Part shown: positions 38,165-43,974 of the stretch, piece after piece
How the letters are laid out: each line of letters opens with the position of its first letter
Position numbering within the stretch: the stretch's first letter is position 1
From: Arachidicoccus sp. BS20
GTDB lineage: Bacteria; Bacteroidota; Bacteroidia; Chitinophagales; Chitinophagaceae
Direction of reading: 5' to 3'
NCBI RefSeq assembly: GCF_001659705.1
Contig: NZ_CP015971.1
Coordinates: 434,001-498,000 of the forward strand
Length of the DNA: 64,000 bases
Made by a program: the position numbers and the translations under genes
Notes under the pieces: model-generated
Database searches by the model: none
Told to the model about the DNA's origin: nothing
Seen by the model: the letters and a program-made list of their open reading frames with translations, nothing else

Positions 38165-39439
38165 TTACGGGTCAAGCGGTTCTTTACTGTTTATTTGCAT
38201 AGAAGATGCGGCAGGCAGATAGCTTGCTTCGCATTTCGATAAACGTTGCATTTCCGTAAACGGAACAAAACCGATGTCCCGATGAAAAATTTTAATAAAC
38301 TGTTCTCCGGTAATATAATCAATGTGCGATTTACTGCTTACGCCAAGCACAAGTTTGTTCAAAGGAAAATGATGTTCTATTAAGATGCGGTTGGCATTGC
38401 GAATATTGGTCGTGGTGTGCCGCGCATAAGGCTCGATGATGACTGCGTTTGATGGAATACCACATTTGTTTACCATATAATTCCGCATTTCAATTGCTTC
38501 ACAATGATGCGTCATAAACGGATGTGCAAAGCCGCCGCTCACAATAAGAAACGGTGCCAGCCCTTTTTTGAAAAGCGCAACAGCGCTATCGCAACGCATT
38601 TGATTTTCTTTGCTGAAAGAAATGGTTTCTTTTCCCGGTCCCGAGCCGAAAACCAAAATAGAGGAATATTGATATCGATTCCAATCGACGGATTTTACTT
38701 TTTTAAATGCCGGAATATTGATGGAAGGAACAGGCTCAAATCTGCCCGCTTCGTTTCTGCCGTTGAGTTGAAGTATTGCCAAATCTATGTCCGGCAAAGG
38801 TTTGAAGAAAAATCTGTTTAATTTCTTTTTCTTCGGAAACGAAATTTCATTCTCAACAAAAGCTTTTATGGTATCGAAATACCCTTTGCTTTGTGAGTAA
38901 TATTTCGCAGAATCAATTGTAGGATAAATCAAATCTTTGTGCAGCAAATAAGCATTGACAATATGATTCATACCTTCCGCTTCTTCGTTCCAAGCGCGAA
39001 TCAGCAACAAGGAATCCGATAACGAATTGCTTAGTTCATACCGATGTGAAGCGCGTATATTATTGTGAACAAATGATTGAATATTTTTTGACTGATGATA
39101 CAATTTTCCCAACGCATTATCAATCGCAACATTCTCCGAATCGCTGACTTGTAAAGCGTTTGCGAGGCATTGCATATCGTTGCAATTGTTCAAAGCATTG
39201 TTCAGGTTTGAAATTTTTTGTTGGTATAAATTGTCCAATATTTTATCCTTGCCCAACTCTTTTTTTATCTTCGATGACTTTTCCATTTCGTACAACAAAT
39301 AAAAAATTCTTTTTTCCAAAACACTTGATTTTATGGAGTAATCAAAGGTTTCGTACTGTTTTTCAAAATCAGTTTGTGAGAATGATTTGAAAGAAAACAA
39401 ACAAGCGATGAAAAAGATAAGAAAGTTTTTTGTGCGCAT
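38165..39439 (-). CDS. DUF218 (YdcF/SanA/ElyC-type) secreted protein
   Basis: The 424-residue protein has a signal peptide (FKSFSQ), an N-terminal helical region of about 220 residues without recognised motifs, and a DUF218 domain from about 255 to 400: SILVFGSGPG, FLIVSGGFAHPF, HHCEAIEMRNYMV, ARHTTTNIRNANRIL and LGVSSKSHIDYITGEQF. DUF218 proteins act in envelope or polysaccharide-precursor processes, mostly undefined. The helical N-terminal part makes it longer than E. coli YdcF (about 260). It is encoded alone, 53 bp upstream of the comB-like gene in the same direction, so the two may be co-transcribed. Confidence 0.8.
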   Translation of the reverse strand: MRTKNFLIFFIACLFSFKSFSQTDFEKQYETFDYSIKSSVLEKRIFYLLYEMEKSSKIKKELGKDKILDNLYQQKISNLNNALNNCNDMQCLANALQVSDSENVAIDNALGKLYHQSKNIQSFVHNNIRASHRYELSNSLSDSLLLIRAWNEEAEGMNHIVNAYLLHKDLIYPTIDSAKYYSQSKGYFDTIKAFVENEISFPKKKKLNRFFFKPLPDIDLAILQLNGRNEAGRFEPVPSINIPAFKKVKSVDWNRYQYSSILVFGSGPGKETISFSKENQMRCDSAVALFKKGLAPFLIVSGGFAHPFMTHHCEAIEMRNYMVNKCGIPSNAVIIEPYARHTTTNIRNANRILIEHHFPLNKLVLGVSSKSHIDYITGEQFIKIFHRDIGFVPFTEMQRLSKCEASYLPAASSMQINSKEPLDP

Positions 39440-39645: not shown

Positions 39646-40435
39646 ATGAAAACAGCATTCATTACAGGAGCCAATAAAGGAATCGGCTTTGAAGTTGCAA
39701 AGCAATTATTACAAAAAGACTTCTATGTATATCTCGGAAGCAGAAGTCTGGAAAACGGTTTACAAGCCGTTGAACAATTAAAAGCCGAAGGATTGAACAA
39801 TGTCGAAGCCATAGAAATTGACGTTACTAACGACGAATCGGTAAAAGCTGCGCGCGCCGAAATCGGTAAAAGCTGCGCGCGCCGAAATCGGTAAAAAGAT
39901 AGACGTTTTAGACGTACTAATCAACAATGCAGGAATTACGGGCGTGCAGCTTGACAGTAACGGTAAGCCGATTCCGCAAACCGCAGCAGGCACAAGTATC
40001 GACGTTTTTAAAACTGTGTACGAAACCAATGTTTACGGCGTCGTTCGCGTTACGCAATCGTTTCTAGACTTGCTGAAAAAATCGGAAGAGCCGAGAATTG
40101 TAATGGTAAGTTCGAGCCAAGGTTCCATCACTTTACACAGCGACCCGACATACAAATATTATCATTACAAAGGTGTGGTTTATCTTTCGTCAAAATCGGC
40201 GCTGAATATGTACACCGTAAATTTGGCTTATGAATTGAAGGACACAAATTTCAAAATCAACGCAGTAAGTCCGGGTTTTACCAAAACAGATTTGAATCAT
40301 AATCGCGGAACAGGTACAGTAGAAGATGCCGGAAAACGCATCGTAAAATATGCCTTGATTGGTAACGACGGACCGACGGGTAAATTCTTTTGTGAAGAAA
40401 TCAATCCCGAAGGAACGGGCGAAATTCCCTGGTAA
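39646..40435 (+). pseudogene. Short-chain dehydrogenase broken by a 25-bp tandem duplication
   Basis: Two frames encode one SDR. The first (39646-39894) has the NAD(P) motif TGANKGIGFEVAKQL and ends early; the second resumes in the frame of INNAGITGVQL (about 39920) and contains the catalytic Ser region VSSSQGS, the YxxxK motif YLSSK and NAVSPGFTKTDLNH. The break is an exact second copy of a 25-bp unit (39841-39865 and 39866-39890), which shifts the frame by +1. Removing one copy restores VKAARAEIGKKIDVLDVLIN and an ordinary 247-residue enzyme of the carbonyl-reductase-like SDR group. The rest of the gene shows no decay, so the event looks recent. A strong terminator follows. Confidence 0.88.
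39841..39890 (+). repeat. Exact 25-bp tandem duplication inside SDR gene
   Basis: The unit GTAAAAGCTGCGCGCGCCGA plus AATCG occurs twice in a row with no mismatch. As 25 is not a multiple of three, it moves the reading frame. Such direct repeats can be lost again by replication slippage. Confidence 0.95.
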
Positions 40436-40483: not shown

Positions 40484-40659
40484 ATTTCGGAGGAGGATTG
40501 AAAAATATTTCTACTTTTTAGAAAATATTTTCTATTTTAGTGGCACGTTTTTAAAATTCTTGTGAAACCTGAATAAAGATGATTCAGAATCTGAATGGAA
40601 TTTTTTATTTCAATAGTAACACGATTTTTATTTTTTTGCGAACCTTAAAAATAAATTTT

Positions 40660-42957
40660 ATGCGTGCCCCCAAAATTTACACATTACTTGTAGCCTCAAT
40701 GCTTGTAACAGCACAGGTTTCAGCGCAACAGATTATTAAAGGAACGGTTATTGACAAAGAAACTAAAGTGCCATTGGAGCAGGCAACTGTTACCGACAAT
40801 ACAAGCGGAATGGCTGTGCAAACAGATGCCAGAGGAAAATTTATTTTAAAAGCACCTTCAAAACAACCAATAGTTATTACGGTCGCTTATGTAGGTTATG
40901 TTCAGGTTTTCGACACTATTACAGAAGAACAATCTGTATTGATTGAACTGTCCAAAAGTGGCGTGCAATTAAGAGATATAACCATTACTGCAAGTAAAAG
41001 CCCTTTATATTCCACACAAATATTAAGCACATTGGACTTAAATGCGCATCCAGCAAAAACGGCGCAGGATTTGCTCCGGTTGGTTCCGGGTTTATTTGTG
41101 GCGCAGCATCAGGGCGGCGGAAAAGCCGAAGGGCTTGCACTGCGCGGCTTTGATGCAGACCACGGAACAGACCTTGGTATTTTTGTTGATGGCATGCCGG
41201 TAAATTTGCCTGCACATGCGCACGGACAAGGTTATGCCGATTTGCATTTTCTCATTCCCGAACTTGTAGGAAGTTACGAATGGGGCAAAGGCACTTACTA
41301 TTCCAACAAAGGCGATTATACAACGGCGGGTTTTGTTAGCTATAACACGAAAGATTTTTTAGACCAAAGTTTTGTGAAAGTTGAAGGCGGAAGATTTACA
41401 ACAGGAAGGTTATCTGCTGCTATTAATCTTTTAGACAGTAAGGCGCGGGAAAAAGGACAATCATTGTACGTTGCAGGCGAAGCCGTTTATACCAACGGTG
41501 GACCTTTTACCAATGTTCCCGAACATTTTAAACGCTATAATTTCTTCGGAAAATTTATTACACCGTTGGGCGAAAAAAATACATTAACGGTTGAAACTTC
41601 TACCTTGTGGTCAAAATGGAATTCTGCAGGAGAAATACCGGAAAGAGCTGTAGATTCGGGATATGTTGACAGTCGTTGGGGCGCTTTTGATACGCATCAA
41701 ACGGGCTTCACTACACGCACAAACGCTATTGTAAAACTGAAATCAGATTTGGGCAGCAATCTTATTTGGAACAACGAAGCGTTTTATTCCAATTATCATC
41801 TCAATCTTTTTACAAATTTTACAGCAAACTATTTTTATCCTGCCGATGGCGATGAGTTCCGCCAGTTTGAAAACAGAAATTTATTTGGTTATCATTCCAC
41901 GCTTTCGCAAACAAATTATGCGGGTAGCACAAGCTTCAACACTAATTACGGCGTAGGTTTCAGAACAGATTTAATGAATCCGCTTGGATTAGACCACACG
42001 AAAGACGGTGCATTTTTAGAGAATATAGAAAGAGGCATCGCGCATGAAACAAATTTGTACGGCTTTGTTGATGAAAACATACGCAATGGAAACTGGTTGT
42101 TTAACGTAGGCTTGCGGTACGATTATTTTAATTTTTATTATCTCAATCAATCCACAAGCTCCATAGCCACAGGTATTTTCGGCGGTTTAGACCCGCACGC
42201 TCACGCAGGAACAGTGTCGCCTAAAATCAATATTGAATATACGTTTAATCCTGCATTTCAACTGTATCTCAAAACGGGTAAAGGATTTCATTCCAATGAC
42301 GTACGTGTAGTGATTGCTCAGCAGGGAAAAGAAATTTTACCGTCGGCTTACGGAACGGATTTGGGCTTTAACTGGAAACCTACTTCAAGGTTGTTTATCA
42401 ATACAGCTTTGTGGTATTTGTTCTTAAAATCCGAATTTACTTATGGCTCGGACTTGATAGACCAACCCGGCGGACCGATGGAAGCAAGCGGCAGAACAGT
42501 AAGATATGGCATCGATTTTTCGGGACGTTATCAGGTGCTCGACTGGCTGTATGCCGGATTAAATCTCAACTATGCGCATCCGCGCAGCATCGACGACCCG
42601 AAAGGCGAAAATTATATTCCGCTTGCGCCTACATTTACGAGTACGGGCGAACTGGATTTTAAATTTAAAAACGGATTGAACGGTGGCATCAGCTATCGTT
42701 ATATGCACGACCGTGCCGGCAACGAGGATTACAGCCTTACTTGTCAGGGTTATTTCGTTACAGACCTTGCCGTGAATTATACAAAGAAAAGATACGAAAT
42801 AGGATTGTCGGTAGAAAATCTTTTCAATGTAAAATGGGATGAAATACAACGTGAATATGAATCGCAATTCAAAGGAGAAGCACATCCCGTAGATGAAATG
42901 AGTTACATTCCCGGCGTTCCGTTTTTTCCGAAGTTGAAGTTTACATTGTTCTTTTAG
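40660..42957 (+). CDS. TonB-dependent receptor with His-rich plug
   Basis: The 765-residue receptor has a signal peptide (AQVSAQQ), a carboxypeptidase-like regulatory domain at about 25-105 (IKGTVIDKETKVPLEQATV), a plug with TAQDLLRLVPGLFVAQHQGGG, LRGFDADHGTDLGIFVDG and NLPAHAHGQGYADLHFLIP near 128-185, and a beta-barrel ending LKFTLFF. ATG at 40660 is chosen because it leads directly into the signal peptide; the frame is open upstream to 40579. The histidines in DADHGTD and AHAHGQG suggest a metal or metal-complex ligand, which is inference. It has no SusD or DUF4249 partner. Nothing else is seen in 40484-40659. Confidence 0.9.
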   Translation: MRAPKIYTLLVASMLVTAQVSAQQIIKGTVIDKETKVPLEQATVTDNTSGMAVQTDARGKFILKAPSKQPIVITVAYVGYVQVFDTITEEQSVLIELSKSGVQLRDITITASKSPLYSTQILSTLDLNAHPAKTAQDLLRLVPGLFVAQHQGGGKAEGLALRGFDADHGTDLGIFVDGMPVNLPAHAHGQGYADLHFLIPELVGSYEWGKGTYYSNKGDYTTAGFVSYNTKDFLDQSFVKVEGGRFTTGRLSAAINLLDSKAREKGQSLYVAGEAVYTNGGPFTNVPEHFKRYNFFGKFITPLGEKNTLTVETSTLWSKWNSAGEIPERAVDSGYVDSRWGAFDTHQTGFTTRTNAIVKLKSDLGSNLIWNNEAFYSNYHLNLFTNFTANYFYPADGDEFRQFENRNLFGYHSTLSQTNYAGSTSFNTNYGVGFRTDLMNPLGLDHTKDGAFLENIERGIAHETNLYGFVDENIRNGNWLFNVGLRYDYFNFYYLNQSTSSIATGIFGGLDPHAHAGTVSPKINIEYTFNPAFQLYLKTGKGFHSNDVRVVIAQQGKEILPSAYGTDLGFNWKPTSRLFINTALWYLFLKSEFTYGSDLIDQPGGPMEASGRTVRYGIDFSGRYQVLDWLYAGLNLNYAHPRSIDDPKGENYIPLAPTFTSTGELDFKFKNGLNGGISYRYMHDRAGNEDYSLTCQGYFVTDLAVNYTKKRYEIGLSVENLFNVKWDEIQREYESQFKGEAHPVDEMSYIPGVPFFPKLKFTLFF

Positions 42958-43077: not shown

Positions 43078-43974
43078 TCATTGCATTACTTTCCTGAACA
43101 AGCTTTTTAACAGTGCTATTTCATTGGTATAAGTTGTATTCTTCCTGTTGGCAAAGTATAGGGTGTTTTTAAGTCGTTTATGTCCTTTCCAAACGAGCTT
43201 TACTAATCCTTCCTCAATCTCTTTGTTACACAAAAAATCCGGTATCACAGCCATTCCTTTGCCACTACACAAACATCTTATAATAGAGTTCAGATTAGGT
43301 ACGATATAATTGGGGCGAAAGTCGGGTGTATGACCAAAGTTGAGCTGCCAAAACCGGAATAAATGTTCCATATCTCCCGTAGTGCCATACCATTTCTCCT
43401 GCTTCAGCCATTGTTCAGCTTCTGCATATTTTTTTTGTTTTACCAATTTTTGAAACGATTTATCATCCAATTCATTTCCGGCAACCACCACAATGGTTTC
43501 AGAAGAAAATGCCTGATGTTCGATATTGTTGGAACTGCCTTTGTGGGGCGTGATAATCAAATCCAAGATGCCTTTATCAAGGTTATCGAGCATCTCATGA
43601 TAATCGCCAAAGCGGATGATAACATTGAAGGGAAGTGTGGAAATATATTGTTCTAGGGTTATCTGGAATGTTTCAAAGCACATGCCTATGCTGATTGTTG
43701 GCGTATGTTTTTCTGTACTTCGCTGGAAATTATTTTCTGCTTCTTCAAGAAAAGTGAGGCTTTCGGCAATAGCGTTATATAATATTTTGCCCCTTTCTGT
43801 TGGTACTATTTTTCTGCCGGTACGCTCAAAAAGTTTATACCCTACATAATTTTCCAAAGAGCTTAAATGCAGGCTCACGCCCGGTTGTGATATAAACAGA
43901 GCTTCTGCCGCACCGGTAAGCGTTCCTGTATGATAAATAGCTTTAAAAGTGCGGTACCATTCGAGATTAACCAT
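43078..43974 (-). CDS. LysR-type transcriptional regulator
   Basis: The 298-residue protein has the LysR N-terminal helix-turn-helix (GTLTGAAEALFISQPGVSLHL, split across residues 17-37) and the effector-binding domain with typical periplasmic-binding-protein folding (TISIGMCFETFQITL, LDLIITPHKG, SIIRCLCSGKGMAVIPDF). It is divergent from the mdaB-like gene at 44075, with only 100 bp between the start codons, the classic arrangement for a LysR regulator and its target. A perfect dyad at 44012-44035 is a candidate operator. A TACCTTTG -7 element for the lysR transcript lies at 43998-44005 on the minus strand. Confidence 0.93.
   Translation of the reverse strand: MVNLEWYRTFKAIYHTGTLTGAAEALFISQPGVSLHLSSLENYVGYKLFERTGRKIVPTERGKILYNAIAESLTFLEEAENNFQRSTEKHTPTISIGMCFETFQITLEQYISTLPFNVIIRFGDYHEMLDNLDKGILDLIITPHKGSSNNIEHQAFSSETIVVVAGNELDDKSFQKLVKQKKYAEAEQWLKQEKWYGTTGDMEHLFRFWQLNFGHTPDFRPNYIVPNLNSIIRCLCSGKGMAVIPDFLCNKEIEEGLVKLVWKGHKRLKNTLYFANRKNTTYTNEIALLKSLFRKVMQ

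Follow-up and report, generated by a model that had tools for sequence, protein, structure and literature searches.

The SDR gene at positions 39646–40435 of the window (the whole stretch of 64,000 nucleotides analysed here) is interrupted by an exact 25-bp tandem duplication. We favour, with a probability of roughly 0.85, a recent loss of function by short tandem duplication at a pre-existing 11-bp repeat, in a genome where related SDR genes remain, and not a selected switch.

The tandem array and its effect on the reading frame

The two units (39841–39865 and 39866–39890) are identical in every letter. Since AATCGGTAAAA (11 bp) is present three times at 25-bp steps, the perfect array extends past the two units to a length of 61 bp, corresponding to 2.44 copies (two full units and 11 bp of a third; Table 1). 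TRF analysis of the array gave a score of 122 with 100% matches, and the perfect self-match of 36 bases at a shift of 25 is far beyond chance. Apart from this array, the window holds a single perfect tandem pair whose unit reaches 8 bp or more, and it is 18 bp long. A perfect 11-bp inverted repeat, GGAATCGGCTT / AAGCCGATTCC, also lies within the SDR gene (39679–39689 and 39965–39975, 275 bp apart) and is probably due to chance.

A unit of 25 bp is not divisible by three, so everything downstream of the array has lost the original frame. The first frame as sequenced ends after 82 codons with a TAA at 39892–39894; the remainder can be read in the +1 frame, which is free of stops from position 39845 onwards, and both frames overlap from 39845 to 39891. 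Computation of the frame for copy numbers from 0 to 7 showed that it is open with exactly one copy alone, every version with 2 to 7 copies stopping after codon 82. When read with one unit, the gene comprises 765 bp and codes for 254 aa without any internal stop. It thus displays what defines revertible inactivation by short tandem duplication, i.e. a perfect duplication within an open reading frame whose removal restores the frame.

Table 1. Coordinates of the array, of both parts of the SDR gene and of further features (positions in the window unless a locus is given).
Feature	Position	Strand	Description
Perfect tandem array	39836–39896	+	Period 25, 61 bp (2 units + 11 bp)
AATCGGTAAAA, occurrence 1	39836–39846	+	11-bp direct repeat; encodes part of ESVK
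AATCGGTAAAA, occurrence 2	39861–39871	+	The extra one, made by the duplication
AATCGGTAAAA, occurrence 3	39886–39896	+	Second member of the 11-bp pair in the one-copy gene; encodes part of EIGK
5' part of the SDR gene	39646–39894	+	82 codons; Rossmann motif TGANKGIG; TAA inside the partial third copy of the array
3' part of the SDR gene	39895–40435	+	+1 frame; NNAG, catalytic Ser, YxxxK, C-terminal FFCEE...EIPW
DUF218 protein	38165–39439	-	Neighbour
TonB-dependent receptor	40579–42957		Neighbour
LysR regulator	43078–43974	-	Neighbour
Long ORFs with ATACCTTCTGCT arrays	L096:383–1687 and L096:3184–3972 (G000:C1:1350383–1351687 and 1353184–1353972)

Identity of the interrupted gene

The two halves as sequenced match the adh_short profile separately and in two frames (profile positions 1–74 and 92–190 of 195). 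The one-copy protein matches it in one stretch (1–190 of 195, E 9e-42, 143 bits for a curated cut-off of 26.6) and is a classical SDR (PF00106) by whole-domain comparison. All elements of the SDR motif set (TGxxxGxG, NNAG, Ser and YxxxK) were found in it, in the form of TGANKGIG, NNAG, VSSSQGS and YLSSK. Its best solved relatives by sequence are SDR-type alcohol dehydrogenase 1, menthone reductase, isopiperitenone reductase and salutaridine reductase, followed by other SDRs and carbonyl reductases. Because the two-copy translation ends before NNAG, Ser and YxxxK, it would not be expected to give an active enzyme.

Ancestral state and age of the duplication

All 51 related genes that were aligned, the paralogue from the same genome included, are single-copy at the array site. 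Exactly 13 codons separate ESVK from GKK in 48 of them, as in the one-copy reading; the three others, from Pedobacter, have nine codons in this region. A search of 394 genomes of the family (E ≤ 1e-80) returned 47 other matches from 36 genomes, all with an open frame and no internal stops. The unit was found twice in no other genome among the 394. It was matched once, with three mismatches, in three of the 394 genomes, in one of them (G104) within its own SDR orthologue. The nearest named relatives are in Siphonobacter and Chitinophaga, according to a scan of genome contigs that may exclude the source genome itself, and the nearest relative shows 76–77% protein identity. Since all related genes are single-copy, one copy is the ancestral state and the duplication an event in the lineage of the source genome; the comparison supports an origin after the divergence from every relative compared.

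Comparison of the conserved columns across the 51 related genes revealed no decay of the SDR gene besides the duplication. Within columns that are at least 85% conserved, the only residue changes are G25D and N145M, each common to some relatives. The one-copy protein has one extra Gly codon at position 248, near the C terminus, and an 8-residue insertion after NNAGxxG (residues 92–99, window 39944–39967), with similar ones in L054, L064, L072 and L073. The insertion was considered as a second lesion and rejected, as the close relatives L054, L064 and L073 have similar ones; being similar in few relatives only, it marks a subgroup of the SDR family. In the 5' part as well as the 3' part, codon divergence from the relatives falls mainly on third positions, which together with the few changes in conserved columns indicates that constraint on the gene persisted until recent times. 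Judged from these alignments, the duplication is probably recent, a term that is only loosely bounded, given a protein identity of about 76% to the nearest relatives. An earlier note on this DNA had described an exact 25-bp duplication, a second half put out of frame that one unit fewer would restore, and two halves otherwise undamaged; the identity of the units, the stop after 82 codons set against the 254-aa reading, and the conserved columns bear out this description in full.

Probable origin at a pre-existing direct repeat

In the inferred one-copy gene, AATCGGTAAAA occurs twice, 25 bp apart and in different frames, within the codons for ESVK and EIGK. The duplicated segment is thus spanned by pre-existing direct repeats, one at each end. 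The 11 bp by which the array exceeds two units lead us to infer a duplication by mispairing at this repeat: a duplication without homology would rarely leave an overhang of 11 bases, and mispairing at an 11-bp repeat would leave exactly that. The ancestral gene would hold the direct repeat by chance of its ESVK and EIGK codons. Misalignment of the strands at the repeat during replication, or unequal sister exchange, would have doubled the 25 bp that separate the start of one repeat from the start of the next. The reverse misalignment, for which 36 bp of identity are now available, would drop one unit and give back the original gene without a scar. In the sequenced clone the two-copy allele would be either fixed or still segregating; its toleration is probably explained by the related SDR genes that the genome retains.

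Among the relatives, at most 9 of the 11 bases of the repeat are matched at the same two places (L023, L025 and L079), without duplication. Direct repeats of at least 11 bp at a spacing of 12–60 bp occur about 10 times per 100 kb in the source genome, with 47 observed and 10–16 in simulated sequence; 11-bp direct repeats are not rare there, and such precursors are therefore common. Hairpin-driven slippage was rejected: shuffled sequence folds just as well as the array (z values of 1.14, 0.10 and -0.41), so that strand folding gives no help in addition to that of the direct repeat. A literature search on microhomology-mediated tandem duplication yielded nothing directly of use.

Other arrays and SDR copies in the genome

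Spaced stretches of the source genome amounting to 864 kb (25%) were surveyed for arrays. The array in the SDR gene is the sole frame-breaking perfect tandem duplication with a unit of at least 12 bp in these 864 kb. Ten other perfect arrays have unit lengths divisible by three, and one other array whose unit is not a multiple of three is situated immediately beyond an ORF of 343 codons. The 864 kb surveyed gave no sign that the genome is generally prone to such duplications, no second frame-breaking array being present. Several perfect in-frame arrays of a 12-bp unit, ATACCTTCTGCT, with up to four copies, were observed in two long ORFs (Table 1).

An intact SDR paralogue is located in the same genome at G000:C1:2232614–2233306. 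What is left of a further SDR family member, a decayed C-terminal stretch (...TGTVEEATKHIIKYALTDNDGVTGKFFSEENNPETKEIPW), was noticed at L003:1455–1667 (G000:C1 about 1506143–1506355); its frame is broken upstream, and it adjoins an intact, more distant SDR. The intact paralogue and the decayed stump are in keeping with a dispensable SDR.

Switch, error or recoding

The earlier note had also proposed that loss of a unit re-activates the gene, making a simple on/off switch. Reversion by unit loss is expected for such duplications, and the sequence of the array makes spontaneous reversion plausible here, so that this part of the proposal stands in principle; an on/off switch in the evolved sense is not supported. 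Such a switch would imply flipping between one copy (on) and two (off) that is kept by selection and happens often enough to matter, which we regard as unlikely. Homologous repeats do join both states (11 bp forward, 36 bp back), and parallels exist: phase variation in pneumococcal capsule genes has been attributed to tandem duplications within their reading frames (Waite 2001, 2003, as cited in PMC8406281 and PMC4022640), and a 15-bp repeat array in tolA of E. coli contracts at 6.9x10^-5, mostly in a RecA-dependent manner (PMC3477136). However, the array is missing from all relatives compared, the full 11-bp homology is not conserved among them, the 864 kb surveyed, a quarter of the genome, contain no similar arrays, and an intact paralogue is kept in the same genome. 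As regards a contingency locus, the tract is neither maintained in relatives nor recurrent at several genes, and a change of copy number does not cycle the frame on and off: one copy alone being open among 0 to 7, expansion never regains the ON state, unlike in simple-sequence contingency loci. The SDR is an ordinary-looking reductase, not a surface or restriction gene and not a typical contingency gene, and none of its three neighbours (Table 1) suggests such a locus. There is a similarly small chance that one- and two-copy alleles coexist at appreciable frequency in the species, which would make the SDR effectively phase-variable via a two-state microhomology duplication.

An assembly or sequencing error, the real gene having one copy, would agree with a one-copy gene that is otherwise perfect, but the 61-bp array is shorter than the usual read length of any current platform and no similar oddity appeared in the 864 kb. 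Assemblers also tend to collapse short repeats and not to add a copy, which counts against an error; we consider it very improbable. The two-copy state may also be an allele of a minority of the cells that found its way into the assembly. That the two-copy gene gives the full protein by ribosomal frameshifting, or its second half alone from a GTG at 39944, is hardly credible: the frames do overlap and the GTG begins a 163-aa ORF, but a product from 39944 would be devoid of the Rossmann cofactor motif and NNAG, and programmed frameshifting was rejected because the relatives are all single-frame genes, so that no frameshift signal can have been conserved.

Comparison with known systems

Under the favoured reading of a recent duplication at an 11-bp repeat, the array is an ordinary kind of revertible mutation. 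It illustrates cleanly, in a natural setting, what a revertible pseudogene looks like: the 11-bp precursor repeat, the product and the way back are all legible in one sequence. In practice, automated annotation will report a pseudogene or a pair of fragments at a locus that may need no more than one deletion to yield a working enzyme. Beyond the example and this point on annotation, the 25-bp duplication alters no existing knowledge.

With the classical SDRs (PF00106), the one-copy protein shares TGxxxGIG, NNAG, the Ser and YxxxK, but the gene as sequenced cannot encode it in one frame. The tolA array of E. coli likewise consists of short intragenic repeats that lose units by recombination or slippage (PMC3477136); it differs in having many in-frame 15-bp units and staying functional, whereas two frame-breaking units are present here. 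The closest precedent comes from pneumococci of serotypes 3, 8 and 37, where spontaneous tandem sequence duplications in capsule genes lead to phase variation (Waite 2001, 2003, as cited in PMC8406281 and PMC4022640). For pneumococcal duplications of nine bases or fewer, a value of at most about 10^-5 is quoted in the latter. The capsule duplications were reportedly selected in culture and their reversion measured, whereas the SDR duplication is one allele of a metabolic-type gene in one genome. Both cases have in common that a short tandem duplication within the frame inactivates the gene and that its exact loss would restore it.
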